Assembly (NCBI RefSeq): GCF_011801125.1
Contig: NZ_CP046171.1
Coordinates: 1,612,001 to 1,676,000, forward strand
From: Nocardia brasiliensis
Lineage (GTDB): Bacteria; Actinomycetota; Actinomycetes; Mycobacteriales; Mycobacteriaceae
DNA length: 64,000 nt
Reading direction: 5' to 3'
Below the pieces are notes generated by a model. That model was not told where the DNA came from. It saw only the letters and a list, made by a program, of their open reading frames with translations, and made no database searches. Both the position numbers and the translations under genes were made by a program. This document shows, one piece after another, positions 6,271 to 62,890 of the stretch (positions within the stretch are counted from its first letter, which is position 1; each line of letters begins with the position of its first letter).

Positions 6271-6282
6271 AGGAGAACAACA

Positions 6283-6540
6283 ATGGCTGACGGATTCACA
6301 CTCACCGACCTGGGCCGGATCATGCTCGAGGCCGCGGGCGACGACGGGGTCGACTTCACCGAGCCCGTGCTCGACGTGCTCTTCGACGACCTCGGTTACG
6401 ACTCGCTCGCGCTGCTCGAGGCCAGCGGCCGGATCGAGCGCGAGTTCGACATCTCGCTGGACGAGGACACCCTGCTCGCCGCCACCACGCCGCGGGCACT
6501 GATCGGTGCCGTCAACGCGCGGCTCGCGAACGCGGCCTGA
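6283..6540 (+). CDS. Type II PKS acyl carrier protein
   Basis: The 85-residue acidic protein carries the phosphopantetheine site at Ser41 in DDLGYDSLALLE. The ATG follows an AAGGAG ribosome site 12 bases after the KS-beta stop. It tethers malonyl units and the growing polyketide to the KS-alpha/beta pair. No phosphopantetheinyl transferase or malonyl transferase of the type II kind is visible in the window, so these are presumably borrowed from fatty acid metabolism, as is common for such clusters. Confidence 0.96.
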   Translation: MADGFTLTDLGRIMLEAAGDDGVDFTEPVLDVLFDDLGYDSLALLEASGRIEREFDISLDEDTLLAATTPRALIGAVNARLANAA

Positions 6541-6552
6541 GGAGGAGCACAG

Positions 6553-7338: not shown

Positions 7339-7359
7339 GCTCGAGGAGTAGGTAATTCG

Positions 7360-8307: not shown

Positions 8308-8310
8308 CAG

Positions 8311-9765: not shown

Positions 9766-9793
9766 CCGCGCCGTGCAGACAAGGAGAGCGAAC

Positions 9794-12213: not shown

Positions 12214-12244
12214 GGCCGCACAAGCAATCCCGGAGGAGTTGGCG

Positions 12245-13114: not shown

Positions 13115-13170
13115 GCTGCCCCGGACCGACGACGTTCGTTCCGATCATTCGAATCACCAAGGGAGCATTC

Positions 13171-14292
13171 ATGACCACCCGTGTATGGGACTACCTGCCC
13201 GAGTACGAGAAGGAACGGACCGACATCCTCGACGCGGTGCAGACCGTGTTCGGGTCGGGGCAGCTTATTCTCGGCGAGAGCGTGCGCGGCTTCGAGCGCG
13301 AATTCGCGGCCTACCACGGGCTCGCGCACTGCACCGGCGTCGACAACGGCACCAACGCACTGAAACTCGGCCTCGAGGCGCTCGGCGTCGGTCCCGGTGA
13401 CGAGGTGATCACCGTCGCGAACACCGCGGCGCCCACCGTGGTGGCGATCGTCGGCGCGGGCGCGACACCGGTTTTCGTCGATGTGCGCGCCGATGACTTC
13501 CTCATGGACACCGATCAGGTGGCAGCGGCGATCACACCGCGTACCAAAGCGATTGTGCCCGTGCATCTTTACGGTCAGTGCGTCGACATGGCGCCGCTGC
13601 GGCGGCTGGCCGCCGAACACGGTCTGCAGATCCTGGAGGACTGTGCTCAGGCACACGGCGCACGCCACGGGGACCGCCTGGCGGGCACCATGTCGAACGC
13701 CGCGGCATTCTCCTTCTATCCGACCAAGGTGCTCGGCGCCTACGGGGACGGCGGCGCGGTGATCACCGCCGACGAGGTCGTGCAGCGAAATATGCGGCAG
13801 CTGCGCTACTACGGCATGGACAAGGTCTACTACGTGATGCGCACGCCGGGCCACAATTCCCGGCTCGACGAGGTGCAGGCGGAGATCCTGCGCCGCAAGC
13901 TCGGTCGGCTCGACGAATACATCGCGGGCCGCAATACCGTGGCGCGGCGCTACGAGCAAGGCCTCGGCGACCTGGCCGATTCGCACGGGTTGCTGCTGCC
14001 CGCGACGAATCCCGGCAATACCCATGTCTATTACGTGTACGTGGTGCGGCACCCGAAGCGCGACGCGATCATCGAGGCGATGCGCGAGCACGACATTCTG
14101 CTCAACATCAGCTACCCGTGGCCGGTGCACACGATGACCGGGTTCGAGCATCTCGGTTGGCGTGCAGGGTCGTTGCCGGTCACCGAGCGGCTGGCGGAGG
14201 AGATCTTCTCGCTGCCGATGTATCCGGCGTTGGGCGAGGCCGAGCAGGACCGTGTCATCGAGGTGTTGCGCACCGTCGTGGCGGGGCTGTGA
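13171..14292 (+). CDS. PLP-dependent dTDP-sugar aminotransferase (DegT/DnrJ/EryC1 family)
   Basis: The 373-residue protein starts at the ATG at 13171 after GGGAG and opens [19 protein letters not shown]. The PLP-binding lysine lies in [16 protein letters not shown], and EDCAQAHGA supplies the cofactor-ring residue. Family members such as DesV, TylB and DnmJ transfer an amino group from glutamate to C-3 (or C-4) of a keto sugar. Next to a 2,3-dehydratase gene, C-3 amination of a 2,6-dideoxy-3-keto sugar is the likely step. The stop overlaps the dehydratase start. Confidence 0.9.
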
Positions 14293-45327: not shown

Positions 45328-48300
45328 GTGGAAACGTCGAACAGCTATATGCCCGATGTCAGATCGCGAGTCACCAAAGCCTCGAACCGGCATCGGAAGA
45401 AGATCGCCAGAAACCGCCGCGGGCTGTACGCGGCCGCCGCCTTCGCCTCGGTCGCGACCGCGTCCCTCGGCGCGGGTGGCCTCGCCCACGCCGATACCGC
45501 CCCGCCCATCGACAACGGGCTGATCACCCAGTTCGGGACCAGCGTGGGGTCGGTGCTCGATCCCGGCACCCGGACCCAGGTGGAGTCGGCGCTGACCGGG
45601 GTCGCGTCGCTGACCCAGGGAACTCCGCTGGCCGACTCCGTCGACAGCTTCGCCACCGCGGTGCGCGGACCCGCGCCGGCGTCCGCACCGACACCCGAGG
45701 CCGTATCGGCCCCGGATTCGCCTGCGCCGCTGCTTCATTCGGCGGTGCGCAGCACCGACGCCGGTAACGCCGGGATCGCGGTCAACGGCGGCACCGGCCG
45801 AGCACCCGCCGCGGTCGAGGAGATCGCGGGCGCGGTCGGTCAGATCGCCGGCTCGGGCCTGGACCTGCGGCAGATCGGGGCATGGGCGGAGCAGCTGCCC
45901 GCCGGGCCGTTGCAGCAGCCGGTGCAGGATCTGCTGGCCTTCGTCCGCGATGCCACCGAGCAGGCGGGTGCGCGCCGGACCGACCCGGCCGCCAACGCGC
46001 TGGACACCCTGATCACGCAGGCTCGCGCGGTCTTCGACTTCCCGGAGGCGGGCGAGGATCCGACCAAGGCACTGCGCGAGCTGGTCGAACCGGTCATCGC
46101 CACGGCCTCCGGTGCGGACTGGTCGCCGGTGCTCGCCGCGATCGCTCCCGCGGTGCAGCAGGTGGCATCGGGTGCCGACATCACGACGGTGCTCACCGAG
46201 CACCTGACGCCGCTGTTGCAGTCGGGGCCGCTCGCCGACGTGGTCCGCCCGATCATCGTGCACTTCGCGCCCGTGCTGCAGGAGATGGCGCCCACCCTCA
46301 CCGCCGTTTCCCAGGGCTCGTTGCCGACGACCGCACTGCTCGGCGCCCTCGAACAGGTGCTGCGCTCCGGGACGCTGACCACCGTGCTGGCCCCGTTCAC
46401 CGGGTTCCTGACACCGGTGCTCGCGGCGTTCGCCGATCCCGGCTCGGCGTTCGCGCCCATCCGCGACACGCTGCTGCAGGTGGTGCGCGGGCTGCTCCCC
46501 GGCCAGCTGCACCAATCCGCGCTGGCGCTGCCGATCGTGCTGCCGCTGGTCGCCATTCCGATCTTCCTGGCGATCCTCGCCATGCCGGTGGTCGGCGTGG
46601 TCGTGCTCGGTCTCGCGGCGGCGGCGCTGGTGGCCGCCGTGGTCGGGGTCGTGGTCGTCGGCGGCCTGATCGCCGCGGCGGTGGTCGGCGCGCTCGTGGT
46701 CGGGGCGATCGTGCTGGCACCGGTGCTGGTGGTCGTCGGCATCATCGCGCTGCCGGTCGTCATCGCCGGACTGATCGCCTTCCAGTTCGTCGCGCCGTTC
46801 GTGCTCGCCGGCCTGCTCGCGGCGATCGTGGTGGTCGGCGTCGGCGCGGTGCTGGCCGCCGCGGCGGCGCTGGTCATCGGCATCGTGCTGACCGCGATCG
46901 CCTTCGTGGTGGCAGGCCTCTTCGCCGTCGTGGTGACGGCGTTGCTGCCGCCGCTGGCCCTGATCGTCGGTCCGCTGCTGTTCACGGGTGCGCTCGCGGT
47001 GCTGGTGGGTGGCCTGCTGCTCACCGCCGCGGCGGTTCTCGGCGTGCTGTTGCTCGGCGCGATCGGGATCGCGGTTCTGGCGGCGATCACCGGTCTGGCT
47101 TCGCTGCTGACCCCGTTCGGGCTGATCGCCCTGCCGATCCTGGTGGTGCTGCTCGTGCTCGCCGTCGCAGTGCTCGGCGCCGCCGCCGTGCTCGCGCTCG
47201 GTGTGCTGGTGGTGGCGGGCATCGCCGGTCTGGTGCTGCTCGGTATCGCGGCGGGCATCACCGTCACCTGGCTGCTCGCGCTGGCGCTGGTCGCGCTCGG
47301 CCTGGGCTGGGTCGCCGGTGTGATCCTCGGCTTCTTGGTCGGCACTGCCGCCAAGCTGCTTGCCCTCGGTGGTGTGCTGGCCGCGGCCGTGGCCGTGGTC
47401 TTCGGCACCATCGCCGCGGGACTGCTGATCCTGGCATTGCCGATCATCGGGCCGATCCTCGCGCCGCTGCTGTTCCTCGGACTGGTTGCGCTGCCCGTGG
47501 CACTGGCGCTGGCGTTCGCGCTCGGCGGGTTGGCGCTGGGTGTGGTGCTCACCGTGCTCTGCGTCTCCTCCGGTCTCGCGCTGCTGGCCGGGCTGTCGGC
47601 CGCGGTCCTCGTCGGTGCGGTGATCCTGATGGCGCTCATGCCGTACGCGATTCCGATCATCCTGCCCGCGGCGATCATCTTCGCGGCGATCATGGCCGGA
47701 TTGCTCACCCTGGTGACCGCCAGTGCCACCGTGCTGATCCTGATCGAGGGTGGCCTGTACACGCTGCTGGCGTTCGCCGCGGCGATCATCGGCGCCGGCC
47801 TGCTGTTCGTCAGCGGGTTCCTGTTGACGGTGGTCGCGTTCGTCGGCTTCGTGATCGCCGCCGCCCTGCTGATTCTGTTCTGCCCGCCGCTGGCGCTGCT
47901 GGCCTCGCCGCTGATCTTCGGCGGCATCCTGGCGGTGCTGCTGGGCACGATCGGGGTCACCATGGCGGTCGGTAGTGCGGTCGCGATCGGGATCGCGGCG
48001 GCCGCGCTCGGCTTCTTCGCCCTCTGGGCGACGGCGATCGTCGCGCTGGCCGCGACCTTCGTGCTGGTGTCGTCGCTGTTCCCGCCGCTGTGGCTGGTGA
48101 CGATTCCGATCGCGCTCGCGGCCATCGCGGTCGTGCTCGTCCTGTCCGCCATCGGTTTCGGTGCGGCGGTGCTGTTGGCGGCCGCGGTGTTCCTGATCGG
48201 CAACGCTATCGGTGTCGCTCTGGGTGTGCTCGCGATCGTCGCGGTGGCGGCGCTGGCGATCATCGGTGTGGCGCTCGCGGCCGTGCTCTCGGTGCCGTAC

Positions 48301-48774
48301 CTGCTGTTCTTCCCGGTCGCGGTCTTCGCGTTCCCGCTGGTGGCGCTCGCGCTGCTGGTGATCGCGTCGCCGTTCCTGCTGGTCGGGCTGGCGGTGGCGG
48401 CACTCGCGGCGCTCATCACCGCCGTGGGCGCCATCGGCATTCCGGTGCTCGCGGTGATCGGCGCGGTGGCGATGGCGGTCGGTGGCTGCGTGCTGTTCTT
48501 CGGTGCGATCGCGCTCGGCGTGCCGCTCAGCCTCTCGGCACCGCTGATCCTGGTCTCCAAGCCGATGGGCGCGACGGCCCGCTCCGGTCGCCGGGACGAG
48601 GCGGGTGACATCACCACGGCGGAGGTGGTGTCCGGGTTGCAGCACCTGCTGCGCCCCGAACCCGCTGCGGCGCAGCCGGTCTCGGCCACTTCGGCGGTTC
48701 CGACCGTCGGCACCGGTGTGACCGAGGGCCCGGTGCGGGCCAGCGAGAACCGTCTGGTGTCGGTCTCGTTGTGA
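45328..48774 (+). CDS. Giant exported hydrophobic protein of unknown function
   Basis: The 1148-residue protein has a long leader with an RR motif (RRGLYAAAAFASVATASLGAGGLAHA, split by context) and a soluble Ala/Leu/Gln-rich part to about residue 395. Then come about 680 residues made almost only of Ala, Val, Leu, Ile, Gly, Phe and Pro. In that block I find just one Lys and one Glu. A polar tail of about 70 residues follows (SKPMGATARSGRRDEAG). This would be 25-30 membrane spans with almost no charged loops. Third-position GC supports this strand. No family was recognised. Confidence 0.8.
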   Translation: METSNSYMPDVRSRVTKASNRHRKKIARNRRGLYAAAAFASVATASLGAGGLAHADTAPPIDNGLITQFGTSVGSVLDPGTRTQVESALTGVASLTQGTPLADSVDSFATAVRGPAPASAPTPEAVSAPDSPAPLLHSAVRSTDAGNAGIAVNGGTGRAPAAVEEIAGAVGQIAGSGLDLRQIGAWAEQLPAGPLQQPVQDLLAFVRDATEQAGARRTDPAANALDTLITQARAVFDFPEAGEDPTKALRELVEPVIATASGADWSPVLAAIAPAVQQVASGADITTVLTEHLTPLLQSGPLADVVRPIIVHFAPVLQEMAPTLTAVSQGSLPTTALLGALEQVLRSGTLTTVLAPFTGFLTPVLAAFADPGSAFAPIRDTLLQVVRGLLPGQLHQSALALPIVLPLVAIPIFLAILAMPVVGVVVLGLAAAALVAAVVGVVVVGGLIAAAVVGALVVGAIVLAPVLVVVGIIALPVVIAGLIAFQFVAPFVLAGLLAAIVVVGVGAVLAAAAALVIGIVLTAIAFVVAGLFAVVVTALLPPLALIVGPLLFTGALAVLVGGLLLTAAAVLGVLLLGAIGIAVLAAITGLASLLTPFGLIALPILVVLLVLAVAVLGAAAVLALGVLVVAGIAGLVLLGIAAGITVTWLLALALVALGLGWVAGVILGFLVGTAAKLLALGGVLAAAVAVVFGTIAAGLLILALPIIGPILAPLLFLGLVALPVALALAFALGGLALGVVLTVLCVSSGLALLAGLSAAVLVGAVILMALMPYAIPIILPAAIIFAAIMAGLLTLVTASATVLILIEGGLYTLLAFAAAIIGAGLLFVSGFLLTVVAFVGFVIAAALLILFCPPLALLASPLIFGGILAVLLGTIGVTMAVGSAVAIGIAAAALGFFALWATAIVALAATFVLVSSLFPPLWLVTIPIALAAIAVVLVLSAIGFGAAVLLAAAVFLIGNAIGVALGVLAIVAVAALAIIGVALAAVLSVPYLLFFPVAVFAFPLVALALLVIASPFLLVGLAVAALAALITAVGAIGIPVLAVIGAVAMAVGGCVLFFGAIALGVPLSLSAPLILVSKPMGATARSGRRDEAGDITTAEVVSGLQHLLRPEPAAAQPVSATSAVPTVGTGVTEGPVRASENRLVSVSL

Positions 48775-50253: not shown

Positions 50254-51807
50254 ATGACGGTCCACACGACAGCCGCGCTCTTCCCGGGGCAGGGCGCCTA
50301 TTTCGCCGGTGCGCTGGCCGGGGTGCGTGACGTTCCCGAGGTTCGGGAGCTGGTGCGCGAGATCGACGAGGTGGCTGTCCGGCACGCGGGCGGCTCGGTG
50401 TCGGAACCCCTCTTCGCAACGGACGGTCCCGCCATCGATGAGCTGCTCGGTTCGGCGCCGGATCTGTTGCAGCTGGCGATATACACCGCCTCGGTGGCCG
50501 CCCATCGACTCCTGTTGAACCGAGGAGTACGACCGGATGTGCTGGTGGGGCACAGTTTTGGTGAGATAGCGGCACTGGTCGGCGCGGGCGCGTTCACCCC
50601 CGCCGACGGTGCGCGGATCGTATGTCACCGCGATGCCGCACTCCGGGAATCGGCTGAGCCGGACGGATATCTGCTCGCGGTGCGCGCCGATGCGGCGCGG
50701 GCCGAACGGATACTCGGCTTGATCGGCGACGCGCGGGCCGTCGTGGCCGCCGAAAACCATGACCAGCAAACGATTCTCGCCGGACCGCAGTCGGCGATGG
50801 ATACCGCGGTCGCGGTCGCGGCCGCACTCGGTCTCGGCGCACTGGCGCTACGTGCGCCGTACCCGTTCCACAGCCCGCTGGTGCACGAGGCCGCCTTCGA
50901 CTTCGCCGATCGGATCCGGGATATCCCGCAGGCGCCGCTGGGTGCGCGGGTCTATTCGCCGATCCTCGGTCGGGTCTATCGGGATGTCGACCGATTGACC
51001 GCGCTGTTGGCCGGGCACCTGATCCGGCCGGTGCGATTCGCCCCCGCGCTGCGGGAGCTACGGGCCGCCGGGGTCGGCGTCTTCGTCGAGTGCGGTCCGC
51101 TCGACGGCTTGACCAAGATCGCCCGCGCGGTGCTCGGCTCCGACGCGGAGTACGTCGCGCCCCTGACACCGGCGGCCGCCACTGTCGAAGTCATCGCCGA
51201 ACTGGCCGGGGTGCCGCATAATTCGTCCGGCGCGGACGAACAGGACGCGGTCCACCAGGCCCTGGCCCCAGGACTGTCCGCGGCGGAGTTCAAGCGACGG
51301 TGGCGCGAGCACGTCGAGCGCATCATGCACCGCACGATCGCCGAGTTCGATGCCGAGGTCGATCCGAGAGCAAGTGTCGCGAAGAGTGCCTCGACCGACG
51401 CACTGGACACCGAGGACTACGACTGGATCGCCCCGGCGCCCGTTCCGCGGGCGTCCGCGCCCACCGCACTACCCGCGGCACCCGCTGCGCCCGCACCGGC
51501 ATTCGCGCTGTCTTCGCCGGAACGCGCGGAATTGCTGCCCGGCGGGCCCGACATCGACGCGGTACCACCGCGTGCGGAACTCCTGCGGGAACTGGTGGTT
51601 CTGTACGCCGACGCGTTGGAGTACCCGCCCGAGGTGTTCGACGAGGACACCGATCTGGAATCCGAACTCGGTGTCGATTCGGTCAAGCAGACCGAACTGC
51701 TGCGCCGCGTCGGGGACAACTACCGGCTCGGGCCGCTGCCAACGGATTTCAAGCTCGGCGAGCACAATACGCTCGGGCGCATCGCCGACCTGATCAACTC
51801 TGGGTAG
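50254..51807 (+). CDS. Acyltransferase-acyl carrier protein didomain
   Basis: The 517-residue protein has an acyltransferase domain (about 5-300) with FPGQGAY, the Ser101 nucleophile in VGHSFGE and His206 in PYPFHSPL. A linker rich in Ala and Pro (about 395-425) leads to one carrier domain (about 435-517) with Ser476 in ESELGVDSVKQTELL. The D-S-V-K form of the carrier site is typical of PUFA-synthase and related carriers. It loads the extender unit, presumably malonyl, and holds the growing chain for the next gene's domains. Only one carrier domain is present, whereas PUFA synthases use several in a row. Confidence 0.9.
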   Translation: MTVHTTAALFPGQGAYFAGALAGVRDVPEVRELVREIDEVAVRHAGGSVSEPLFATDGPAIDELLGSAPDLLQLAIYTASVAAHRLLLNRGVRPDVLVGHSFGEIAALVGAGAFTPADGARIVCHRDAALRESAEPDGYLLAVRADAARAERILGLIGDARAVVAAENHDQQTILAGPQSAMDTAVAVAAALGLGALALRAPYPFHSPLVHEAAFDFADRIRDIPQAPLGARVYSPILGRVYRDVDRLTALLAGHLIRPVRFAPALRELRAAGVGVFVECGPLDGLTKIARAVLGSDAEYVAPLTPAAATVEVIAELAGVPHNSSGADEQDAVHQALAPGLSAAEFKRRWREHVERIMHRTIAEFDAEVDPRASVAKSASTDALDTEDYDWIAPAPVPRASAPTALPAAPAAPAPAFALSSPERAELLPGGPDIDAVPPRAELLRELVVLYADALEYPPEVFDEDTDLESELGVDSVKQTELLRRVGDNYRLGPLPTDFKLGEHNTLGRIADLINSG

Positions 51808-51816
51808 GCAGCCGCG

Positions 51817-54800
51817 ATGACCGGACCTCTCGACGGCAAGATCGCGTTGGTCACCGGTGGCGCCCGCGCGGTAGGCCGGGCGATCGCGCTGCGGCTGGCG
51901 GCCGATGGCGCGCTGGTGATCATCAACCATTTCCGCTCGCCCGCCGACGCGCGCGCGACCAAAGCCGAGATCGAGGCCGCGGGTGGCCGGGCGCACATCA
52001 TCCGCGCCTCGGTGGCCGACGCCGGCCAGCGCGATCGCATGTTCGACGAGATCGCCGCGACATTCGGTGCGCTCGACATCCTGGTCAACAGCGCGGCCAA
52101 CGGCAGGCTCGCCGCGGGCCCCGCAGTGGACGAGGCCATGATCGATCTCGCGATCGACACGAATCTCAAAGGCGGACTGGGCTGTTCGCGCCGGGCCCGG
52201 GAGCTGATGCGGGGCAGGGCAGGCGCGAGCATCGTCAACATCTCCACCCTCGGCGGTGGCCAGTTCGTGCTCTCGGACTACCTGGCCTGCGGGCCGGCCA
52301 AGGCCGCGGTCGAGGCGATGACCCGTTATCTCGCCGTCGAATTCGCCCCGGACGGCATCCGAGTGAACACCGCCGCCGCCGGACTGCTGGAAAGTCCGGT
52401 AGCACACCAGTTCCCGCAGGCCGAGGCGCTGCGGCAGGCGACGGTGGCCGCGACGCCGCTCGGCAGGCTCGGTACACCGGAGGAACTGGCCGCGATCGTG
52501 GCGTTTCTCGTGTCAGCGGATGCGAGCTGGGTGACCGGGCAGGTCTTGCTCGCCGACGGCGGGCTGTCCACCGGCGCGGCCATGTTGTCGCCGCCACTGC
52601 AACCGGCCGCGCCGAGGGACGATCGGACGGAGTCGATCGGCACACTGGCGGCGCACGATACCGACGATCTCGACGCCGAGGAAACGGTGGTGGTCGTCGG
52701 TATGGGGATCACCGTGTCGGGGGCCAACGACCCGGCGGAGTTCTGGCGTGAACTGCATACCGGCGCCGAGCGTTTCATGCCCGTGCCACCGGATCGGTGG
52801 GACAACACCAACTTTCACGATCCGGACCCGACCGCCGCGGACAAGTCGTACTCCGAGCATTCGGCCTTCATCACCGATTTCGTGCCGCACCCCCGGCTGG
52901 CTGCCGAACTCGCCGCCGCCGGGCAGACCCAGGACCAATGCGAATCCACCACACTGTGGTTGCGCAATTCGGTGCTGCAGGCCATGGACTCGGTGACAAC
53001 GCGTCCCACAGATCGCTGTGGATTCCTGGTCGGCTATACCGCTGATGGCAACCAGCACGCCGAGGAGGCGACGGTCGTGGCCGGGGCGCTGCGGCTGGCG
53101 CGAAATGCCGTGCGAAAACGCGGTATCGAGCACCAGGATGAGGGGCTCGCGGCCATCGAGGCGGCGCTGCGCGCCCGCTACCCGCGCAGCGTCACCGACC
53201 CGCAGCGGGTGTTTCCGCATCAGGTCGGTGCAGGCGCGATGGCGGGCATTCTGCCCGCGGACACCGAACTGCTGATGCTCGATACCGCGTGCTCGTCCTC
53301 GCTCTACGCCGTCGATCTCGGCCTGCGTGGGTTGCTGGACGGGCACTACGACGTGGCGGTCTGCGGTGGCGCGTTCGCGGTCGGGCCGCGCGGCTCGGTG
53401 CTGTTCGCCAAACTCAACGGCCTGTCCGCGCGCGGCGAGGTGCGCAGTTTCGACCGCACCAGCGACGGTGTGCTGTTCTCCGACGGTGCGGCCACGGTGG
53501 TGCTCAAGACCCTGCGCCGGGCGCGCGCGGACGGTGACCGAATCCTCGGTGTGCTGCGCGGGTTCGGCGCCTCCTCCGACGGCCGGGGCAAGGCGATCTA
53601 CGCACCGAACGCGGATGGCCAGGAGCTGGCCATCCGGCGCGCACAGGCGCGTCCCACTATGCGCGGGGTGCGTCCCGGCTGGGTGCTCGCCCATGCGACC
53701 GGCACCCAGGCCGGGGACAGCGCCGAGTTCGGCACTCTGCGCAAGACTCTGGCCGGTAGTGAGCCGGTACGGGTGACGTCCAACAAATCGGTGATCGGGC
53801 ACACCGGTTGGGCGGCGGGCACCGTGTCACTGGTGCAGGCGCTGCTCGGTTTCAGCAATGAGCTGATCCCACCGCAGCACCGATTCGACCAGCCCCCAGC
53901 GGAATTCATGATCGACGGGAGCAACCTGGAGATCCCGAAGGCGGCCGTGCGCTGGCCCGCTGGCGGTGACAAGCCGCGCGTCGCCGCGGTGTCGAGCTTC
54001 GGATTCGGCGGGACGAACGCACATCTCGTCGTCGAGGAGCCGCCGACTGTCGACTGGCGCGGACGCGGTGTGCCGACACCGCGATCGCAGCTCCAGGCCG
54101 CGCCTGCCCGATTGGCGGTGGTGGCGGTGGCCGCGCAGCTGCCCGGCACGACGCGGCCGCACGAGTGGCTCGCCGCCGAGCATCCGGTGACCACCTTCGG
54201 CGCGCGGTATCCGCTGCCGAGTGTCGCGGAGGTCAAGCTGCCGCCGGGGCTGCTGCGTGCGATCGATCGGTGCCAGCTGATGATCTTGGCCTGCGCCCGC
54301 GCGATCCATGCTGACCTCGGTGCCTTCTGGACCGCGAACAGCGCCGAAACCGGCGTCATAGTCGGTCATTTCGGTGAGACGCACAATGCCATGCATTACG
54401 CGACCCGTTCCTACCTCGACGACGTCGCGGCGACGTTGCGCGCCGATCCCGCACTGGCACGGGCGCCCTGGTTGCACGACTTGATCGCCGACTTGACGGC
54501 CGAGGTCGATGCGCTGGTTCCGCCCGCGACGGAGAACACCTTTCCGGGCATGATGCCCAACGTCATTCCCGCCAGGGTCGCGAACTACTTCGGGCTCAAC
54601 GGCTTGAACATGACGGTGGACACCGGGTTCACCGCCGCGCTTAGCGCCGTCGACGTGGCCGCCCGCTATCTGCGTTCCGGCGAACTGCGCATGGCACTGG
54701 TCGGCGGCATCAACGGCAACAGCACCGAGGAACAGCGCACGCTGCTCGGTGCGCTGCTGCCCGACGCGGCGCGGCTGGCCGAGGGCGCGTTCCTGCTGGC

Positions 54801-57702
54801 CCTCACCACGGAGCAGACGGCGCGCGAGTCGAGCTTGCGGGTGCTCGGCTACCTGGATCCGCTCACGGCGGCGGCCGCGCGCGGCAGCGCGGAAGAAATA
54901 GAATGTGGTGCCCCGCAGTCGGATTCGCGGCCGAACCTGCTCGGTGCGGAGGGCGCGCTCGGCATCTTGACGGCGCTGGACACCGTCGGTGCCGACCGCT
55001 CGGTGATGGTGCGGTGCCGTGGCGGGAACGGCGGCGCGGACGCCGCGATCCGGGTGACCGGACCGGAATTCCGGGAAGAGGCGGGCACCGCGGCAGCGCC
55101 CGCGGTGTCGGTGGGTGAGCGCGACGCGACGGTACCCGTGGGCGAAACTGTGACGCTCCCCGTCGAATCGGCTACTGACATGCCGGAAAACCGTGGTGGG
55201 GACACGATCTCGGACAGCCGCGTCGACGTGCACACGTGGGCGTTGACCGCGGACCCCGGCGTGGCGGTCCGCCCGCCGATCGAATTCCTGCCCGAGGCCG
55301 CGACATTGCTGCTGATCGATGATCCCCGGGCGCTGCGCGGCCACGTCATACCGCGCCGTACGACGGTGCTCTCATTGCAGCAGGGTGACGGCGTCGTGTG
55401 GGTGCCGCGGGTGACCCCCGAGGCCGTCGGCGAGCTGCTGGAGCGGCTGGATCCACGGGGCGAGGTCCGGCATCTGCGCCTGGTCGTCGATCTGTCGGCT
55501 GACGTCGGCACCGAACGCACGGAAACGCTACGCGCGCTGCATGATCTGTGGTTCCTCGCGGCACGACAGCGCGCGGCCGCCCTAGCGAAGCCCGAGTCAT
55601 CCACCGTGGCACTGCTGCTGCGCGCGATGGACGGTACCGCGCCGCGTCCGTACACGGGCCTGTTCACCGGCGCGATCAAGGTCGCGGCCCTCGAATGGCC
55701 GCGAAGTGCGGTGTTCGCCCTGGCGAGCGACGGTGACCTGCCTGCGGCCATCGACCTCGTCGCGTCGGAATCGATGCTGTCGCGGTCCCTGCCGGTCGCC
55801 TACTACCGTGATGCGGTCCGGTATCGGGCGACCTTGACGGTGTCGGCCGACTCGAATCCGGACGGCTATCGGCTCACGCGGGATTCGGTGGTGGTCGCGG
55901 CCGGTGGTGGCCGGGGTATCACCGCCGAAGTGCTGCTCGGCTTGGCCCGCGGCTCCGGTGGCCGGTTCTATATCCTCGGCAGCAGTGACCTCGATGCGCT
56001 GCCCGCACGCTACCGGGACTGCGACGACGCCGAATTCGCCGGCGCCAGGAAGGAATATCTGCGCCGGCGGCGGGCCGAGGACCCGACCGTCGCGCCGCGC
56101 GTGCTGAACGCGGAATTCGAGCGGTTCGCCAACGCGCGTCGAACGGCGCGCACGCTGCGCAGGCTCGAGGAGGCCGGGGCCACCAGCGTGGCGTATCTGT
56201 CGTGTGACGTCGAGGACCCTGCGGCGGTCGAGCGGGCCATGGCGTGCGTGCACGCCGCCGAGGACCGGATCGATCTGCTGATCAATGCCGCGGGCCGCAA
56301 TCGGTCCGCGCCGATCGCGACGAAGGACTTCGACGAGTTCCGGCGGGTGCGCGATCTCAAACTGCTCGCCTACACCAATCTCGTTGCCGCGCTTGCCGGC
56401 AGGCCGCCGCGCCGGTGGTGCAACTTCGGCTCGCTACTCGGCGTCACCGGTCAGGTCGGCGAGGTGGACTACGCCTCGGCCAACGACTTTCTCGGCACCG
56501 CCGCGGTGGCGGGCGCGGCCGCGGGCCGCGACGAGCTCACCATCGGCTGGACGCTGTGGGGTGAGGTCGGCCTCGGTGCGAACCCCTTGACCAAGGCCTA
56601 TTTCGACAAGACGGGGCAGTACTCGAACATGTCCACCGCGGAAGGCATCCAGCACTTCCTCGGCCAGGTGCGCGCCGCGCATCCGCATCCCTACACCGCG
56701 CATCTCGGCGTCGCGGAGTACGGGGCGGTCGACGCGTTGCTGCCCGGCTTCCTCGGGCCGAGCCCGCGACCGTTCTATCTCGATCGGCAGGTGGCCGCGG
56801 GCCAGGTGGACGGCCGTCCGTGGGCGGTGTACGAGCGCGACTTCGACCTGGATCGGGACGCCTATCTCGCCGACCACCTGGTCAACGGGGTGGCCACCCT
56901 GCCGGGCGCGTTCGCCGCGGAGCTGGCGTTGCAGGCGGCCACCGCGTTGCTGCCCGGCTGGCGTGGATATGCCATGGAGGAGTTGACCTTTCACCACTTC
57001 CTCAAGGTGCACCGTCCGGATCGTCCCGTGCGCAAGCGCATTCGTGCCGAGTTGCTCGACGAGCGAACCGATCCCGCGCACGCGCGGGTCCGTGTCGAGG
57101 TGACCGAGGACGTGATCGCGCCGAACGGAACGGTGCTCGTCCGCGACCGGCCGCACGTCAGCGTGATCGTATTGCTGGCGCCGACGTTGTCGCCCGCGCC
57201 GCGCTGGACGCCCTGGTATCCGGCCACCGAACAGCCTGTTGTCGATCCGTACCATCGCGCGGACGCGCCGATCCGGTTGACCGGTGTCTTCGAAACGACG
57301 TCGAACCCCAGGCTGCACCCACTCGGCAAGCGGTCGACCTACTGCCTGGAGCTGGCGCCGAGCCACCCGGTGTTCTCCCGGTTCCGCGTGCCGGTGCTGC
57401 TCATCGACGGCCTGCTCCGGACTGGTGTGCTCGCGGCGGGCGACGAGCTGGACCGGGCGCCCGTCGCCGCACCGCTGCGCATCGCGCGCCTCGACCTGTA
57501 CGAGTACACCAACGACGCCCGCCTGGGCGACGGCGGCCCGATCGAGCTGTACGCGATGGTGCCGGACACGGCGACGGCGGGGGATGGCGCGGGCAATCTG
57601 TTCGTCGCGGTCCGCCCGGATGGGCGAATCATCCTGGCACTCAAGGGACTCGAAGCGATAACCACCGGCCTCGCACGGGTCGCGGTAGAAGGAGACGATT
57701 GA
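51817..57702 (+). CDS. Iterative PKS/fatty synthase: FabL-like ER, KS, CLF-like KS, KR, DH
   Basis: The 1961-residue protein reads, in order, as follows. An SDR domain (1-255) with Y-x6-K spacing (DYLACGPAKAA) and TRYLAVEF resembles FabL enoyl reductases. The KS (about 287-745) has Cys492, His626 and His662. A second KS-like domain (about 765-1020) lacks the cysteine (DTGFTAAL, Phe938), like a chain length factor. An uncharacterised linker follows. The KR (about 1355-1640) has GGGRGIT and Tyr1552. The DH (about 1650-1961) has His1687 in DHLVNGVATLPG. The set resembles PUFA synthase parts in one chain and would make a reduced or partly reduced acyl chain. It begins nine bases after the AT-ACP gene. 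Confidence 0.88.
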   Translation: MTGPLDGKIALVTGGARAVGRAIALRLAADGALVIINHFRSPADARATKAEIEAAGGRAHIIRASVADAGQRDRMFDEIAATFGALDILVNSAANGRLAAGPAVDEAMIDLAIDTNLKGGLGCSRRARELMRGRAGASIVNISTLGGGQFVLSDYLACGPAKAAVEAMTRYLAVEFAPDGIRVNTAAAGLLESPVAHQFPQAEALRQATVAATPLGRLGTPEELAAIVAFLVSADASWVTGQVLLADGGLSTGAAMLSPPLQPAAPRDDRTESIGTLAAHDTDDLDAEETVVVVGMGITVSGANDPAEFWRELHTGAERFMPVPPDRWDNTNFHDPDPTAADKSYSEHSAFITDFVPHPRLAAELAAAGQTQDQCESTTLWLRNSVLQAMDSVTTRPTDRCGFLVGYTADGNQHAEEATVVAGALRLARNAVRKRGIEHQDEGLAAIEAALRARYPRSVTDPQRVFPHQVGAGAMAGILPADTELLMLDTACSSSLYAVDLGLRGLLDGHYDVAVCGGAFAVGPRGSVLFAKLNGLSARGEVRSFDRTSDGVLFSDGAATVVLKTLRRARADGDRILGVLRGFGASSDGRGKAIYAPNADGQELAIRRAQARPTMRGVRPGWVLAHATGTQAGDSAEFGTLRKTLAGSEPVRVTSNKSVIGHTGWAAGTVSLVQALLGFSNELIPPQHRFDQPPAEFMIDGSNLEIPKAAVRWPAGGDKPRVAAVSSFGFGGTNAHLVVEEPPTVDWRGRGVPTPRSQLQAAPARLAVVAVAAQLPGTTRPHEWLAAEHPVTTFGARYPLPSVAEVKLPPGLLRAIDRCQLMILACARAIHADLGAFWTANSAETGVIVGHFGETHNAMHYATRSYLDDVAATLRADPALARAPWLHDLIADLTAEVDALVPPATENTFPGMMPNVIPARVANYFGLNGLNMTVDTGFTAALSAVDVAARYLRSGELRMALVGGINGNSTEEQRTLLGALLPDAARLAEGAFLLALTTEQTARESSLRVLGYLDPLTAAAARGSAEEIECGAPQSDSRPNLLGAEGALGILTALDTVGADRSVMVRCRGGNGGADAAIRVTGPEFREEAGTAAAPAVSVGERDATVPVGETVTLPVESATDMPENRGGDTISDSRVDVHTWALTADPGVAVRPPIEFLPEAATLLLIDDPRALRGHVIPRRTTVLSLQQGDGVVWVPRVTPEAVGELLERLDPRGEVRHLRLVVDLSADVGTERTETLRALHDLWFLAARQRAAALAKPESSTVALLLRAMDGTAPRPYTGLFTGAIKVAALEWPRSAVFALASDGDLPAAIDLVASESMLSRSLPVAYYRDAVRYRATLTVSADSNPDGYRLTRDSVVVAAGGGRGITAEVLLGLARGSGGRFYILGSSDLDALPARYRDCDDAEFAGARKEYLRRRRAEDPTVAPRVLNAEFERFANARRTARTLRRLEEAGATSVAYLSCDVEDPAAVERAMACVHAAEDRIDLLINAAGRNRSAPIATKDFDEFRRVRDLKLLAYTNLVAALAGRPPRRWCNFGSLLGVTGQVGEVDYASANDFLGTAAVAGAAAGRDELTIGWTLWGEVGLGANPLTKAYFDKTGQYSNMSTAEGIQHFLGQVRAAHPHPYTAHLGVAEYGAVDALLPGFLGPSPRPFYLDRQVAAGQVDGRPWAVYERDFDLDRDAYLADHLVNGVATLPGAFAAELALQAATALLPGWRGYAMEELTFHHFLKVHRPDRPVRKRIRAELLDERTDPAHARVRVEVTEDVIAPNGTVLVRDRPHVSVIVLLAPTLSPAPRWTPWYPATEQPVVDPYHRADAPIRLTGVFETTSNPRLHPLGKRSTYCLELAPSHPVFSRFRVPVLLIDGLLRTGVLAAGDELDRAPVAAPLRIARLDLYEYTNDARLGDGGPIELYAMVPDTATAGDGAGNLFVAVRPDGRIILALKGLEAITTGLARVAVEGDD

Positions 57703-57703
57703 C

Positions 57704-59077
57704 ATGGCGATCCTGGACGCGGATCTCGCACACCGACTGCCGCCGGGGCCGGTCGGGGCACATCGGCTGCTGCGCCATATTCGGGCGTTGCGCACCGACG
57801 CACCGACCCTGTTCGAGGCGCTGCGCCGCGGCTACGGCGATACCGTGCGGCTGCCACTCGGCCTGCTGACCGCGACACTGGTCTTCCACCCCGACGGCAT
57901 CAAGCATGTGCTGCAAGACAACAACGCCAACTACGTGCGAGGTATCGGCTACGAGCGCTTCAAGATCTTCATGGGCGACGGGCTGCTGACCACCGACGGT
58001 CCGCTCTGGCGGGAGCGCAGGCGCACGATCAACCCGATGTTCCATCGGATGGCCATCGGGGAGATGGTCGACACGATGGCGTCGGCGACCGCGGAGGCGA
58101 TCGGGCGCTGGGAAACCCTCGGACCCGATGGCTACGCCGGTGACGTCGTGCCCGAGATGATGGGCGTCACGCTGAGCGCGATGGGCCGCATCATGTTCGA
58201 CACCGACCTGGCCGCTGATCGGGAGCGGATCGGCGATGCCATGGACACGGCGGTGCGGGCGATGGTGTTTCGCGGCACCATGCCGGAACTGCTGCCCGCC
58301 TGGATGCCTTTCCCGTCGAATCGGCGGACCGTGGCGGCCCGCGACGTGCTGCACGAGGTGATCGACCGGATCATCGCCGCGCACCGCGACGGTAGCCACG
58401 GCAACCGGCCGGACCTGGTGAATTTGCTGCTCGCTGAGGCGGATTCCGGCGGACTGGACGACGTGGCGGTGCGCGACGAGCTGATGACGATCTTCATGGC
58501 CGGACACGAGACCACCGCCACGGCGCTGGCCTGGACCCTGTTCGAGGTCGCGCGCGACCCCGAGGTCCAGCAGCGCCTGTTCGAGGAGGCCCAGCGGGTC
58601 TTCGGTGGCAGCGGCGAACCGCACCTCGCGGACCTGGCAGAGCTGACCTACACCAGGATGGTGCTCGACGAGGCACTACGGCTGCATCCGCCCATCTGGG
58701 TGTTTCCGCGCGCGACGGTCGACGACGACGACATCGCGGGCAGCCACGTGCCCGCGGGGGAGTGCGTGTTCCTGAGCCCCTATGTGACGCACCGACATCC
58801 GGACCTGTGGGACGATCCGACCCGATTCGATCCGGAGCGGTTCACCGAGGCGGCCAAGCGCGAGCGCCCGCGCTACACCTACTTCCCGTTCGGCGGCGGC
58901 CAGCGCAAGTGCGTCGGCGAGTCGATGGCGCTCACCCAGATGACGCTGACCTTGGCGATGATGGTGTCGCGGTTCACCTTTCATGCCCTGCCTGGACTCG
59001 GCGAGGAACTGTCGACCGCTGTTTCCCTGCGGCCCGCCCGCGGCATCGGGCTGCGGATCGTGCCGAGGGACGCATGA
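57704..59077 (+). CDS. Cytochrome P450
   Basis: The 457-residue protein has all the P450 hallmarks: the I-helix AGHETTATA, the E-x-x-R of DEALRLHPP, the PERF segment and the heme loop FPFGGGQRKCVGE with Cys403. The long N-terminal part without a membrane anchor and the region LLTTDGPLWRERRRTINPMFH resemble fatty-acid-type and CYP110-like enzymes. It starts one base after the synthase stop and overlaps the next gene by four, so it is a fixed part of the pathway. It probably hydroxylates the acyl chain or product. Redox partners are not encoded nearby. Confidence 0.93.
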   Translation: MAILDADLAHRLPPGPVGAHRLLRHIRALRTDAPTLFEALRRGYGDTVRLPLGLLTATLVFHPDGIKHVLQDNNANYVRGIGYERFKIFMGDGLLTTDGPLWRERRRTINPMFHRMAIGEMVDTMASATAEAIGRWETLGPDGYAGDVVPEMMGVTLSAMGRIMFDTDLAADRERIGDAMDTAVRAMVFRGTMPELLPAWMPFPSNRRTVAARDVLHEVIDRIIAAHRDGSHGNRPDLVNLLLAEADSGGLDDVAVRDELMTIFMAGHETTATALAWTLFEVARDPEVQQRLFEEAQRVFGGSGEPHLADLAELTYTRMVLDEALRLHPPIWVFPRATVDDDDIAGSHVPAGECVFLSPYVTHRHPDLWDDPTRFDPERFTEAAKRERPRYTYFPFGGGQRKCVGESMALTQMTLTLAMMVSRFTFHALPGLGEELSTAVSLRPARGIGLRIVPRDA

Positions 59078-61524
59078 TCGACGTGCGCGAGGATCGCGCG
59101 ACGCCGCTCGGACCGCCCGGCGCCGGATCGGCCGCGCGCGAAACATCCGCTGGATCGGTGCAGCCGGTGCGCCGGTTCGTTTGGCGCCCAAGGGAGGTCG
59201 AGGCAGTACCGAACGAGCCGAGCCCACGATTGCTCGGCCGCCGGATCGCGGTGCTCGGCGGTAGCGGCGAGTCGGCCAGCCAGGTGATGTCGGCGCTGCG
59301 CGCGGCCGGTGCGGCGCCCGCACGGCTCGAGCCGCCGCACGAGGGCGGCCAGGTAGCCGCCTTCCTGTGGGACATGGGCCGGCTCGACGGCATCGTCGAC
59401 CTGAATCATGAACAGCCCTTCGACCTTTCCGACTCCGAGCGGTGGGGTGAGCAGCTGTGGCAGACGATCGAACTGCTGCGCGGCTGCTATGAGCGCTGGC
59501 GCGCCGAATCCGGCACCGAGCGCCTGTTCTACGTGGCGGTGACGCGGATGGACGGCACGCACGGCTACGGCTGCGGGCCGCTGGCCCAGCCCCTCGGTGG
59601 ACTGTGGGCCGGTCTGGCGAAAAGCCTGCCGCGCGAATTCGACAACGTTAACGTCCGGGTGCTCGACTTTCCCGCGGCCGCGACGCGGGTCGAACCGCTG
59701 GACGCGGCGATGGCCGCGCAACTGTGCCGGGAACTGTACCGCTGGGGGCCATTCGAGATCGGCCATGCCGACGGCAGGCGCTACACCTTGGTCGCCGAGC
59801 GTGCCGAGGTACCCGATCCCGTGCTCACGCTGGGGCCAGGCGATGTGGTGGTGCTGTCCGGTGGCGGCCGTGGCATCGGCTTCGCCCTGGCCCGGCAGCT
59901 GGCCGGGAAGTACGGCTGCCGGGTGCTCGTCAGCGGGCGCAGCCCACTGCCGGACCCCGGCGACGCGGTGAACACATTGTCGGAGGACGAGTTTCGGGCT
60001 TACCGTGAGAGAACCCTGGTCGCTGCGGCGAGGCAGCGCACCTTGGCCGCGGCCCGGGCCGCGCTCGAGCGGGCCACGCTGGCACGGGAGCTGCTCGCGC
60101 GGCTGGCCGCGGCCAAGGCCGAAGGGCTCGATATCGACTACTACCAGTGCGACGTGACCGAGCCGGACCAGGTGCGGGCGCTGCTGGCGGCGGCGGGACC
60201 CGGCCTTGCCGGTGTCGTGCACGACGCCGGTGTCGACGCGCCGGTCCGGCTGCCCGGAAAATCGGCCGAGGTCGTGCGCCGGACGACGGCCGTCAAAGTG
60301 ACGGGGTTGCTGAATCTGATTGCCGCCCTGCAGGATCGGCCCCCGGTCCGGTTCTTCAGCACGGCGGGCTCGCTCGCGGGCCGCTGGGGCGGAATGGTCG
60401 GCCAGTTGGAGTACGCCGCGGCGAACGAGGCGGCGAGCCGGATCGGGCGGTGGGCCGCGGGCACCGGATCCGGCCTGGCTCGCCCGGTACCGGTGGCGAC
60501 CATGTGCTGGCCGACCTGGGAACGGCTCGGCATCATCACGAATTACGAAGCGACGCTGGCGTATATGTCGGCGATGTCGGTGCCGGAAGGGTTGCGGCAT
60601 TGGGAGCGCGAGATTCTGGCCGGTAGCGCGGGCGAGTTCACCTTCGTCGGTGCGTTCGGTCAGGCGATCACGCCGGTCCTGCTGCGCGCCTACCCGCCCG
60701 CCGCGGGCCTGATCGGACTCGACCACTTGGCCGGGCGCCTGCTCTTCCTAGGGGCTCCGACTCGTTTCGTAGCCGGTTCGACGCTGGAGACCGAACTCGT
60801 CCTCGGCGACGAACTGGCACCGGCGTTCGCCGACTTCCGCGTCGACGGCAGCCCCGCGATGCCACTCGGCCTGCTGCTGGAATACCTACGGTCCCTGGCG
60901 GATTGGGTGCAGCCCGACGGTCCCGTACCGCCGCTGTCGGCCATAGGCGACATTCGCGTCAATCTGTCCGCGCTCCGGGAGGCAGGGATCGGCGCCCGGC
61001 TGCGGGCGGGCGTACTCCGGCAGCCGTCCGATCACCGCGCGTGGCAGGTGTCAGTCGAGATATGGTTCAGGGCAACGCAATTGGCGAGTGCGACACTGCA
61101 CTACGGCGACACCGGCGACGGGCCGGACGATGCGGGCCGCACCGAGGAGATACCGGTCGGGGGCGGCTCGGTGCGGCGGTTGCAGTGGAACGGGCAGGCC
61201 TTGCGGCTCGGGCGCTGGTCGGTGCGGGACGACGCGGCGACAGCCGGCTCGGCCGAGGTGGTCGCGGACCGCGGGCAAGATCTGGTGCTCGCGGTACCGG
61301 CCCCACGATCGGTGCTGCCGTTGAACCAGCTGGAAACGCTGTTGTGGCATGCGTATCGGCGGCAGGCGCCGACTGCGCTCGCGCACCTACGGATCGAGGC
61401 GATCGAGTTTCCCGGCCCGCTCAGCGGCTCTGCGGGCCGGGTGACGGCCGCGGGCGCGACCTCGACCGCCTACACGCCTGCCGGACAAGTACGACTGACC
61501 ATGCGAGGGATTCGTTATGCGTAA
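59074..61524 (+). CDS. Second PKS-like protein: ketoreductase with degenerate dehydratase-like domain
   Basis: The 816-residue protein starts at an ATGA overlap with the P450. Residues about 55-245 look like a non-catalytic SDR-like structural subdomain (IAVLGGSGESASQVMSALRA). A full KR lies at about 255-470, with VLSGGGRGIGFALA and Tyr447 in LEYAAANEAA. It has the long helical insert typical of PUFA-type KR domains. The C-terminal part (about 545-816) is hotdog-like, with FRVDGSPAMP in place of H-x-x-x-G-x-x-x-x-P: Phe588 replaces the catalytic His. It may be a structural or chain-shaping partner. No carrier or KS domain is present. Confidence 0.82.
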   Translation: MIDVREDRATPLGPPGAGSAARETSAGSVQPVRRFVWRPREVEAVPNEPSPRLLGRRIAVLGGSGESASQVMSALRAAGAAPARLEPPHEGGQVAAFLWDMGRLDGIVDLNHEQPFDLSDSERWGEQLWQTIELLRGCYERWRAESGTERLFYVAVTRMDGTHGYGCGPLAQPLGGLWAGLAKSLPREFDNVNVRVLDFPAAATRVEPLDAAMAAQLCRELYRWGPFEIGHADGRRYTLVAERAEVPDPVLTLGPGDVVVLSGGGRGIGFALARQLAGKYGCRVLVSGRSPLPDPGDAVNTLSEDEFRAYRERTLVAAARQRTLAAARAALERATLARELLARLAAAKAEGLDIDYYQCDVTEPDQVRALLAAAGPGLAGVVHDAGVDAPVRLPGKSAEVVRRTTAVKVTGLLNLIAALQDRPPVRFFSTAGSLAGRWGGMVGQLEYAAANEAASRIGRWAAGTGSGLARPVPVATMCWPTWERLGIITNYEATLAYMSAMSVPEGLRHWEREILAGSAGEFTFVGAFGQAITPVLLRAYPPAAGLIGLDHLAGRLLFLGAPTRFVAGSTLETELVLGDELAPAFADFRVDGSPAMPLGLLLEYLRSLADWVQPDGPVPPLSAIGDIRVNLSALREAGIGARLRAGVLRQPSDHRAWQVSVEIWFRATQLASATLHYGDTGDGPDDAGRTEEIPVGGGSVRRLQWNGQALRLGRWSVRDDAATAGSAEVVADRGQDLVLAVPAPRSVLPLNQLETLLWHAYRRQAPTALAHLRIEAIEFPGPLSGSAGRVTAAGATSTAYTPAGQVRLTMRGIRYA

Positions 61525-62890
61525 GGGTGATTCGGGTACGTCTACGCCGGTGGCGGCCGAGATCGAGGATCGCGGCGATCGATACTGCGTGATCGGTGCG
61601 GGCGCCGCGGGGCTGACCGCGGCCAAGAACCTGCTGGAGTACCGCATCCCGGTGGATGTGGTCGAGCGGGCGAGCGACGTAGGCGGCACCTGGAATCCGG
61701 ACTGCCCGACCAGTGGCGCCTATCCGTCGATCCATCTGATCACCTCGAAGCCCTACATCCGATACACGGACTTCCCGATTCCGGCGGAGTACCCCACCTA
61801 CCTCGGGCAGCGGCACATCATGTCCTATCTGCGCGCATATGCCGACCACTTCGGCGTGCGGGAGCACATCGAGTTCGACAGCTCGGTCGAATCGGTATGG
61901 CGGGCCGCCGATGGCACCGAGTGGCTGATCCGGGTTCGCACGGCCGCGGGCGTCGCTGTGCGCCGCTACCGCGGTGTGGTGATCGCGAACGGACACAACT
62001 GGGCCCCACGCCGCCCCGAATTGCCCGGCACCTTCGACGGGTTGTCCATGCACGCGGCCGACTACCGCGGCCCGGACGTGTTGCGCGGCAAGCGGGTACT
62101 CGTGATCGGCGCCGGTACCTCGGGCTGCGATATCGCGGTGGAGAGCAGCCAGGCGGCGGCGCGCACGCTGCTGAGTGTGCGGCGCGGCAATTACATCTGG
62201 CCGAAGTACATGTTCGGTATGCCGACTGACGCGTACTACGAGTTCGTGCTGAAGTTCCGGATGCCGCGAGCGTTGGTGCGCGCCATGGGCAAACCGCTGC
62301 TTCGGCTGAACAGCGCGGGCAACCCCGTGCGCTACGGCATGCCACGGCCGGAACACAAACTGCTGGAAGAGCATTTCGTGATGAACTCGACCCTGCTCTA
62401 CCAGCTCGGTCACGGCGAGATCGACGTCAAGCCGGAGGCCGTCGAATTGTGCGGTGACCATGTGCGTTTCGCGGACGGTTCGGTTGAGCACATCGATGCC
62501 ATCGTCTATGCCACCGGCTACCACCAGGCCGAGTTCCCGTTCATCGACCGCGCGTATCTGAACTGGTCCACCGGGCCCATCCCGGCGCTGCACCTGCACG
62601 CCTTCCACCCCGAGTTCGACAACCTCTTCGTTATCGGCTACTTCCAAATATCCACCGGCACTTGGCCGATCATGGACTACCAGGCGCAGATCATGGCGCG
62701 GTATCTGCACCTGCTCGACACCGACCCGCAGCGTGCCGCGGGGTTCCGGAAGGAAAAGGCGAATCCCGTCTACGGTCCGAAGCTCAACGGCGGCATCAAC
62801 TACTACGGTTCCGAGCGCCATTGGCTCCAGGTCGAACACGTCTCGTATCGCAGGCGATTGCGCAAGCTGGCACGACGCCTGGCCGCGTAA
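61517..62890 (+). CDS. Flavin-containing monooxygenase (FMO/BVMO-like)
   Basis: The 457-residue protein has two Rossmann motifs: FAD at about 25 (VIGAGAAGLTAAKNL) and NADPH at about 195 (VLVIGAGTSGCDIAVE). Between them lies the FMO fingerprint F-x-G-x-x-x-H-x-x-x-Y as FDGLSMHAADY, and later ATGYHQAEFPF. It should oxidise a nucleophilic nitrogen or sulfur, or insert oxygen next to a ketone. It overlaps the previous gene by eight bases and ends the operon, so it is probably a late tailoring step of the same product. Confidence 0.9.
   Translation: MRKGDSGTSTPVAAEIEDRGDRYCVIGAGAAGLTAAKNLLEYRIPVDVVERASDVGGTWNPDCPTSGAYPSIHLITSKPYIRYTDFPIPAEYPTYLGQRHIMSYLRAYADHFGVREHIEFDSSVESVWRAADGTEWLIRVRTAAGVAVRRYRGVVIANGHNWAPRRPELPGTFDGLSMHAADYRGPDVLRGKRVLVIGAGTSGCDIAVESSQAAARTLLSVRRGNYIWPKYMFGMPTDAYYEFVLKFRMPRALVRAMGKPLLRLNSAGNPVRYGMPRPEHKLLEEHFVMNSTLLYQLGHGEIDVKPEAVELCGDHVRFADGSVEHIDAIVYATGYHQAEFPFIDRAYLNWSTGPIPALHLHAFHPEFDNLFVIGYFQISTGTWPIMDYQAQIMARYLHLLDTDPQRAAGFRKEKANPVYGPKLNGGINYYGSERHWLQVEHVSYRRRLRKLARRLAA

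Follow-up and report, generated by a model that had tools for sequence, protein, structure and literature searches.

The closest described systems are the Pfa or 'secondary lipid' synthases (Types A-T; Shulse and Allen, 2011, PMC3098273), which are iterative fatty acid synthases (FAS)/polyketide synthases (PKS) with a ketosynthase and chain length factor pair (KS-CLF), acyltransferase (AT), acyl carrier protein (ACP), ketoreductase (KR), dehydratase (DH) and enoyl reductase (ER) spread over a few multi-domain proteins, and with a patchy distribution across phyla. An operon sharing these traits was analyzed in Nocardia brasiliensis, in a stretch of 64,000 nucleotides (nt) (assembly GCF_011801125.1, contig NZ_CP046171.1, positions 1,612,001 to 1,676,000; hereafter the window) from a genome of one contig (7.95 Mb). 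The operon belongs to a real, conserved and apparently uncharacterised FAS/PKS family, which usually includes a cytochrome P450 that is in places fused to the synthase proteins. The family differs from the Pfa synthases in having one ACP, a FabL-type ER of the short-chain dehydrogenase/reductase (SDR) group instead of PfaD, a PKS-type DH and a KS clade of its own. The P450 and a protein with a second KR and a degenerate DH (KR2-pseudoDH) are also usually present, while 'P450' is mentioned 0 times in PMC3098273.

Organization of the operon

Five open reading frames (ORFs) on the + strand are packed within 50254-62890 of the window. The earlier note on this DNA, made from the letters alone, had proposed five genes spaced or overlapping by at most nine bases and encoding AT-ACP, ER-KS-CLF-KR-DH, P450, KR/degenerate DH and a flavin monooxygenase (FMO). 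The spacing was confirmed (9 nt between genes 1 and 2, 1 nt between genes 2 and 3, an overlap of 4 nt for genes 3 and 4 and one of 8 nt for genes 4 and 5), as were the domain list by Pfam, translations and profile comparison, the P450 and FMO inside the operon by Pfam, and the D-S-V-K carrier motif (GVDSVK) and the second KS without cysteine (DTGFTAAL) in the translations. The features are as follows, with counts of conserved residues among homologue rows.

50254..51807, +, gene 1, AT-ACP, 517 aa (Pfam AT, PP-binding)
about 50278-51132, +, AT domain of gene 1 (Pfam; Ser/Arg/His kept in 73/73 rows)
about 51589-51795, +, single ACP of gene 1, motif GVDSVK (Pfam; Ser in 72/73 rows, one gap)
51817..57702, +, gene 2, ER-KS-CLF-KR-DH, 1961 aa (Pfam adh_short_C2 (SDR), ketoacyl-synt N and C, KR, PKS_DH_N)
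51817..52569, +, FabL-type (SDR) ER of gene 2, Y155-x6-K162 (Pfam, NCBIfam, PDB search; 81/82 rows)
52681..54054, +, active KS of gene 2, C492/H626/H662 (Pfam; each residue in 82/82 rows; KS trees)
54094..54846, boundaries approximate, +, CLF, the second KS-like domain without active Cys (alignment column, 82 rows)
55384..56616, boundaries approximate, +, KR1, N-terminal half plus long insert, K1515/S1539/Y1552/N1556 (Pfam; tetrad in 71/71 lettered rows, 11 rows gapped)
56782..57699, +, DH1, PKS-type dehydratase, H1687/D1864 (Pfam; His in 71/71 and Asp in 71/72 lettered rows)
57704..59077, +, gene 3, cytochrome P450, 457 aa (Pfam p450; heme Cys, I-helix Thr and ExxR each in 73/73 rows; P450 tree)
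59074..61524, +, gene 4, KR2-pseudoDH, 816 aa from ATG 59074 (Pfam KR, NCBIfam)
59209..60591, boundaries approximate, +, KR2 of gene 4, K/S/Y/N tetrad intact (72/72 rows)
60679..61521, +, pseudo-DH of gene 4, catalytic His lost, Asp replaced by Glu (alignments; profile relation to DH1)
61517..62890, +, gene 5, class B FMO, 457 aa, FxGxxxHxxxYR (Pfam FMO-like; motif F, H and Y in 25/25 rows)

These rows count three genomes twice (L014/L104, L039/L063 and L041/L119; only L014/L104 among the FMO rows); L016 and L121 are among the P450 rows. The ORF of gene 4 opens at GTG 58762 as listed; an in-frame ATG at 59074, overlapping the P450 stop codon by 4 nt, is the likely translation start.

The N-terminal domain of gene 2 combined FabL similarity with Y-x6-K, although its best NCBIfam SDR model, FabL, scored 211 bits, under the cut-off of 328. 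Its sole PDB match at E<=1e-40 was an enoyl-ACP reductase (3oic/3oid), and the one homologue row without Y-x6-K has the ER in another frame. Neither the CLF nor the degenerate DH gave a separate Pfam match in the gene 2 and gene 4 proteins. The active-site column of the CLF holds Cys in one of the 82 rows and mostly F, L or H in the rest. The pseudo-DH matched the intact DH1 profile to profile (95% probability, E 2.4e-8). Its catalytic His is replaced in all 72 homologue rows, while Glu stands in place of Asp in 71/72 (one gap), and in 53/54 (one gap) of a second alignment. Only Pro, Trp and this Glu are invariant in a pseudo-DH alignment of 28 rows, compared with 31 invariant columns in a DH1 alignment of 25 rows from a slightly different set of loci. 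In NCBIfam, gene 4 matched omega_3_PfaA best, over the KR portion of that model (68.7 bits, far under the cut-off).

From their domains and conserved residues, AT, ACP, KS/CLF, KR1, DH1 and ER are predicted to be a complete reducing set. The polyunsaturated product considered in the earlier note is therefore not specifically indicated.

Distribution and composition of the family

Genome contigs were scanned with an alignment of three family members; 105 stretches were confirmed and 80 kept (79 loci). With the window this gave 80 distinct loci, for which gene counts rest on homology search. The scan patterns were drawn from ER and KS, so the conservation of these two domains is partly by construction. 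Sixty-one of the 79 scan loci came from Actinomycetota, 16 from Pseudomonadota and one from a metagenome-assembled genome (MAG) of Bacillota, and one was unassigned. Twenty-two named genera are represented, chiefly Streptomyces, Burkholderia and Nocardia, and three loci carry no genus name. Many named (culturable) species carry this conserved biosynthetic family. Within the genus the operon is patchy, because strong synthase matches were seen in just two (G012, G017) of 23 same-genus genomes searched. A search of viral contigs found no relative.

AT-ACP was detected in 76/80 loci, and the four others (L050, L052, L074, L108) start at contig ends. The P450 was detected in 71/80, counting L121, and KR2 in 70/80. 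Contig ends cut four of the nine loci where the P450 was missed (L052, L092, L098, L116) and four of the ten where KR2 was missed (L052, L092, L098, L099).

A plasmid of Paraburkholderia ginsengisoli (NZ_CP066077.1, L014) has the same components in the same order, FMO included, with gene 2 being 44% identical over 2034 aligned positions. It differs from the window in that P450 and KR2-pseudoDH are fused and that the genes coming next encode ABC, FtsX-type and LolA-like proteins and a phosphopantetheinyl transferase (PPTase). Kitasatospora purpeofusca (L051), Streptomyces sp. NRRL F-6131 (L060) and Actinacidiphila epipremni (L057) have all components in unchanged order, with FMOs 64-67% identical. 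Unlike in the window, gene 2 runs on into the P450 in these loci, and MMPL and SnoaL-like relatives are nearby in all three.

The search for the same gene order that the earlier note had called for thus showed the gene set recurring in many genomes. The note's statement that the operon matches no known pathway calls for correction: the same core gene set is present in dozens of genomes, although no relative with a known product was found. A family member may already have a published product, in which case the operon would be a new member of a known pathway. Thirty-three of the 79 loci belong to the well-studied Streptomycetaceae; however, no report of such an architecture was found in the open-licence literature, the part covered (subscription journals and MIBiG lay outside it). 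We consider this explanation rather unlikely. Hybrid PKS, nonribosomal peptide synthetase (NRPS) and PUFA synthase-like clusters (PMC13291983) carry NRPS and PKS genes, and 'P450' occurs 0 times in that paper. The afc cluster of the Burkholderia cepacia complex (AFC-BC11), a candidate because relatives were found in that complex, was dropped, its product being described as an N-acyl-tetrapeptide of nonribosomal assembly (PMC12186527).

The flavin enzymes differed between groups. FMO relatives were found in 25/80 loci and FAD_binding_3 (family F4) relatives in 26/80, never together within the DNA examined per locus (Fisher p 5e-6, uncorrected for kinship; much of the pattern follows the tree). 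The SnoaL-like family F18 was found in 19 loci, in every case alongside F4. The motif FxGxxxHxxxYR in the FMO is characteristic of class B FMOs, as opposed to the classical Baeyer-Villiger type, and the nearest solved structures are PDB 8z12-8z17.

P450 and KR2 in the proposed assembly

Gene fusions were detected at all three boundaries among the four core genes. P450 and KR2 are fused in one frame in 16/84 rows (15 distinct genomes, of Burkholderiaceae and Methylocapsa), DH1 and P450 in 3/84 (L051, L057, L060), and ACP and ER in 2/84 (L059, L087). All fusions keep the order AT-ACP, ER-KS-CLF-KR-DH, P450, KR-pseudoDH; CLF and KR1 lie on separate frames in 9/84 rows. One clade (SH-aLRT 93, not starred) held 50 of the 58 rows of the P450 tree, the window's among them. 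L051 and L057 fell in different, supported parts of this tree from the Proteobacteria P450s, suggesting that the fusions were separate events. Identity alone cannot set the family P450s apart, since they are about 33-71% identical to that of the window and the next P450 of the same genome is 37% identical to it. The pairwise distances of KR2 (r=0.95), AT-ACP (0.89), P450 (0.80) and FMO (0.97) correlated with those of gene 2, with no correction for kinship; these correlations and the flavin-enzyme counts were computed without rows L014, L039, L041 and L016.

On balance, these data favour an iterative, fully reducing FAS/PKS of four core genes with an accessory FMO, in which the P450 is a core part that probably oxidises the ACP-bound chain. 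The AT would load malonyl units onto the single ACP, KS/CLF would condense them and restrict the chain length, and KR1, DH1 and the FabL-type ER would reduce the chain, as their domain identity and conserved residues suggest. The P450 may be a core component instead of a late addition, most probably acting while the chain is on the ACP. KR2 probably reduces a keto group that KR1 leaves untouched, for example one arising from oxidation or left at one position, and the pseudo-DH may be a retained structural or repurposed domain. The FMO in the branch of the window, and the FAD_binding_3 enzyme in others, would oxidise the product further. The principal reason for treating the P450 as a part of the synthase is the fusions.

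Several observations weigh against this reading. The P450 precedes KR2 in 53 of the 72 rows with both, but follows it in 19 (18 Streptomyces and Allosalinactinospora), where it may act later or separately. It also tracks the synthase less tightly than KR2 does (r of 0.80 against 0.95). Five loci (L070, L074, L084, L089, L110) seemingly lack both P450 and KR2 and are not cut there, so the P450 is not universal in the family; L121, also uncut, has no KR2, and its sole P450, located upstream of the synthase, branches outside the P450 clade. None of the core genes was found to encode a thioesterase. The neighbouring transporters vary between groups, and some may have no connection with the synthase.

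Some of these points would fit a different role, in which the synthase is the same but P450 and FMO tailor the product after its release, as ordinary post-assembly enzymes do, and the fusions serve only to balance expression. Many actinomycete P450s act on free substrates. The position of the P450 after KR2 in the 19 rows, the few loci that do without it, and the replacement of the FMO by another flavin enzyme in other groups, as is often seen with tailoring enzymes, are in line with such a role. However, the fusions of the P450 to synthase proteins involve two different ends and fall in two distinct regions of the P450 tree. Tailoring after release is possible, though we do not think it likely.

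Under the favoured reading of the P450 as a core part, the operon probably yields an exported, oxygenated metabolite, either lipid-like or a short reduced polyketide. MMPL genes were found near 12 of the 80 loci, MFS genes near 17, FtsX-type genes near 13 and LolA-like genes near nine. MMPL and Lol-type proteins are known as lipid exporters, which weakly favours a lipid-like product. If the P450 does act on the carrier-bound chain, this would be a bacterial synthase in which chain assembly itself includes oxidation, and the DH-P450 and P450-KR fusions that exist in nature are ready constructs for testing such action. A further step, proposed tentatively and with considerable doubt, is that the family represents a widespread class of iterative FAS/PKS in its own right, where the P450 is a built-in catalytic domain oxidising the carrier-bound chain during assembly, KR2 handles the oxygenated intermediate and oxygen insertion is part of the chain programming.

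Other genes were found near the synthases without P450 or KR2. In Embleya hyalina (L084) a carotenoid-oxygenase-like gene (PF03055, 15954-17300) directly follows the synthase, and an amine-oxidase-like gene and a FAD_binding_3 gene are neighbours in L070 and L074, respectively. Class III aminotransferases adjoin the synthase in L110 (10699-12069) and L121 (16853-18220), both without KR2, and an amine end group could be formed there.

KS phylogeny and relationship to PUFA synthases

The earlier note had termed the operon similar to polyunsaturated fatty acid (PUFA) synthases. A PUFA (Pfa) or hgl-type secondary lipid synthase would make a polyunsaturated or long-chain membrane lipid, and the KS-CLF pair with a KR expected of Pfa synthases, the PfaA-like KR and the MMPL- or Lol-type genes near some relatives agree with this. 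Phylogenetic analysis of the KS, however, separated the family from the PfaA-, PfaC- and Type P rows that were sampled. In a first tree (56 rows) the family and six more distant rows formed one clade of 34 (100/99). A second tree (61 rows, with six more reference loci) gave a clade of 33 (100/99) comprising the family and five more distant rows, namely L015 twice, L016, L017 and L044. The trees included a single enediyne row, with HglE/HglC sequences outside the sample. The second tree omits L135_2023_1, both copies of the window's type II KS and L018_9754_267, and the clade tests, which used a quick tree, additionally omit L146_16919_474.

Twelve PfaA-type KS rows (97/95) were separate from the family clade, and three of their loci scored above the TIGR02813 cut-off. 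One of the twelve is from the Beijerinckia indica locus that is named Type P in PMC3098273. Four further rows, labelled PfaC-type from their position beside PfaA-type genes, were also separate (100/100). A KS inside ordinary modular or mycocerosic-type clades would have refuted the earlier note; this was not the case, as the KS branched outside eight rows labelled modular-type (99/96), seven of which are uncharacterised KSs of the same genome. In modular and mycocerosic-type PKSs an AT would be expected in the KS chain; in this operon AT-ACP is a separate gene. No single sister group of the family emerged from the tests. The family as sister to the PfaA-type plus enediyne rows was not rejected (AU p 0.43), which suits a Pfa origin, nor was the family as sister to the modular-type rows (0.36), and the quick tree grouped it with the PfaC-type rows at support 40.

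The enediyne PKS of Streptomyces globisporus C-1027 (L126), like the operon, is a type I PKS with a P450 gene nearby. Its KS, however, lies outside the family clade and joins the PfaA-type rows (86/85). We take this PKS to be SgcE, presumably with an architecture without FabL-type ER and without CLF.

The domain content also separated the family from the Pfa synthases. The proteins scored 291, 123 and 69 bits with TIGR02813, whose cut-off is 1010; this model spans the whole of PfaA, so that split genes score low on it. Pfa synthases are expected to carry FabA-type DH domains; Pfam detected none in the five proteins, only PKS_DH_N. A PfaD-type ER was not found by the domain search of the five proteins, in which the sole ER match was SDR/FabL-like. 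One PP-binding domain was present across the five proteins instead of the tandem ACPs of Pfa synthases, a weak distinction because PMC3098273 accepts a few single-ACP types of secondary lipid synthase. The likeness to PUFA synthases thus holds for the KS-CLF pair and the PfaA-like KR, but not for the KS clade, the one ACP, the FabL-type ER, the PKS-type DH or the TIGR02813 score. A PUFA or hgl-type synthase is, in our view, very unlikely.

Two more distant sets were noted. In a Nocardia genome that also carries an orthologous operon (G017), a second, more distant set of AT-ACP, KS-CLF and P450 is located at 4131-12476 of L044. A plasmid of Azospirillum argentinense (L017, 9297-21296) encodes a distantly related AT-KS-CLF protein, with KR/DH-like and SDR functions on genes of their own; this locus also encodes two fatty acid desaturases, a DUF4345 protein and a PPTase.

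Directly upstream of the operon in the window is a gene for a secretory lipase (PF03583; 48856-50079, +), with relatives at the same place in Nocardia loci L047 and L048. It is preceded by a gene (45328-48774, +) for a protein of 1148 aa with a signal-like N-terminus, about 670 consecutive hydrophobic residues (394-1063) and no Pfam family. Relatives of the latter lie upstream of the operon in Nocardia loci L047, L048 and L049, and its N-terminal part had matches in 5/40 genomes searched, the window's genome included. Neither gene was listed as part of the operon; a relative of the hydrophobic protein (61%) is present in G008, a genome in which the synthase had no strong match. In Burkholderiaceae L067 (2208-7915), L099 and L109, DUF2827, TPR and tryptophan-halogenase-like genes are located upstream of the operon (Pfam was run on the members from L067 and L099).

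Elsewhere in the window, 3443-14292 (+) encodes a KS pair, an SDR, a polyketide cyclase, two FAD aromatic hydroxylases and a DegT-type aminotransferase, and looks like an aromatic type II polyketide cluster. A KS at genome position 1700801, 25 kb past the window, is part of an ORF in L046 that we take to be a type I FAS from its length and the AcpS-like next gene.

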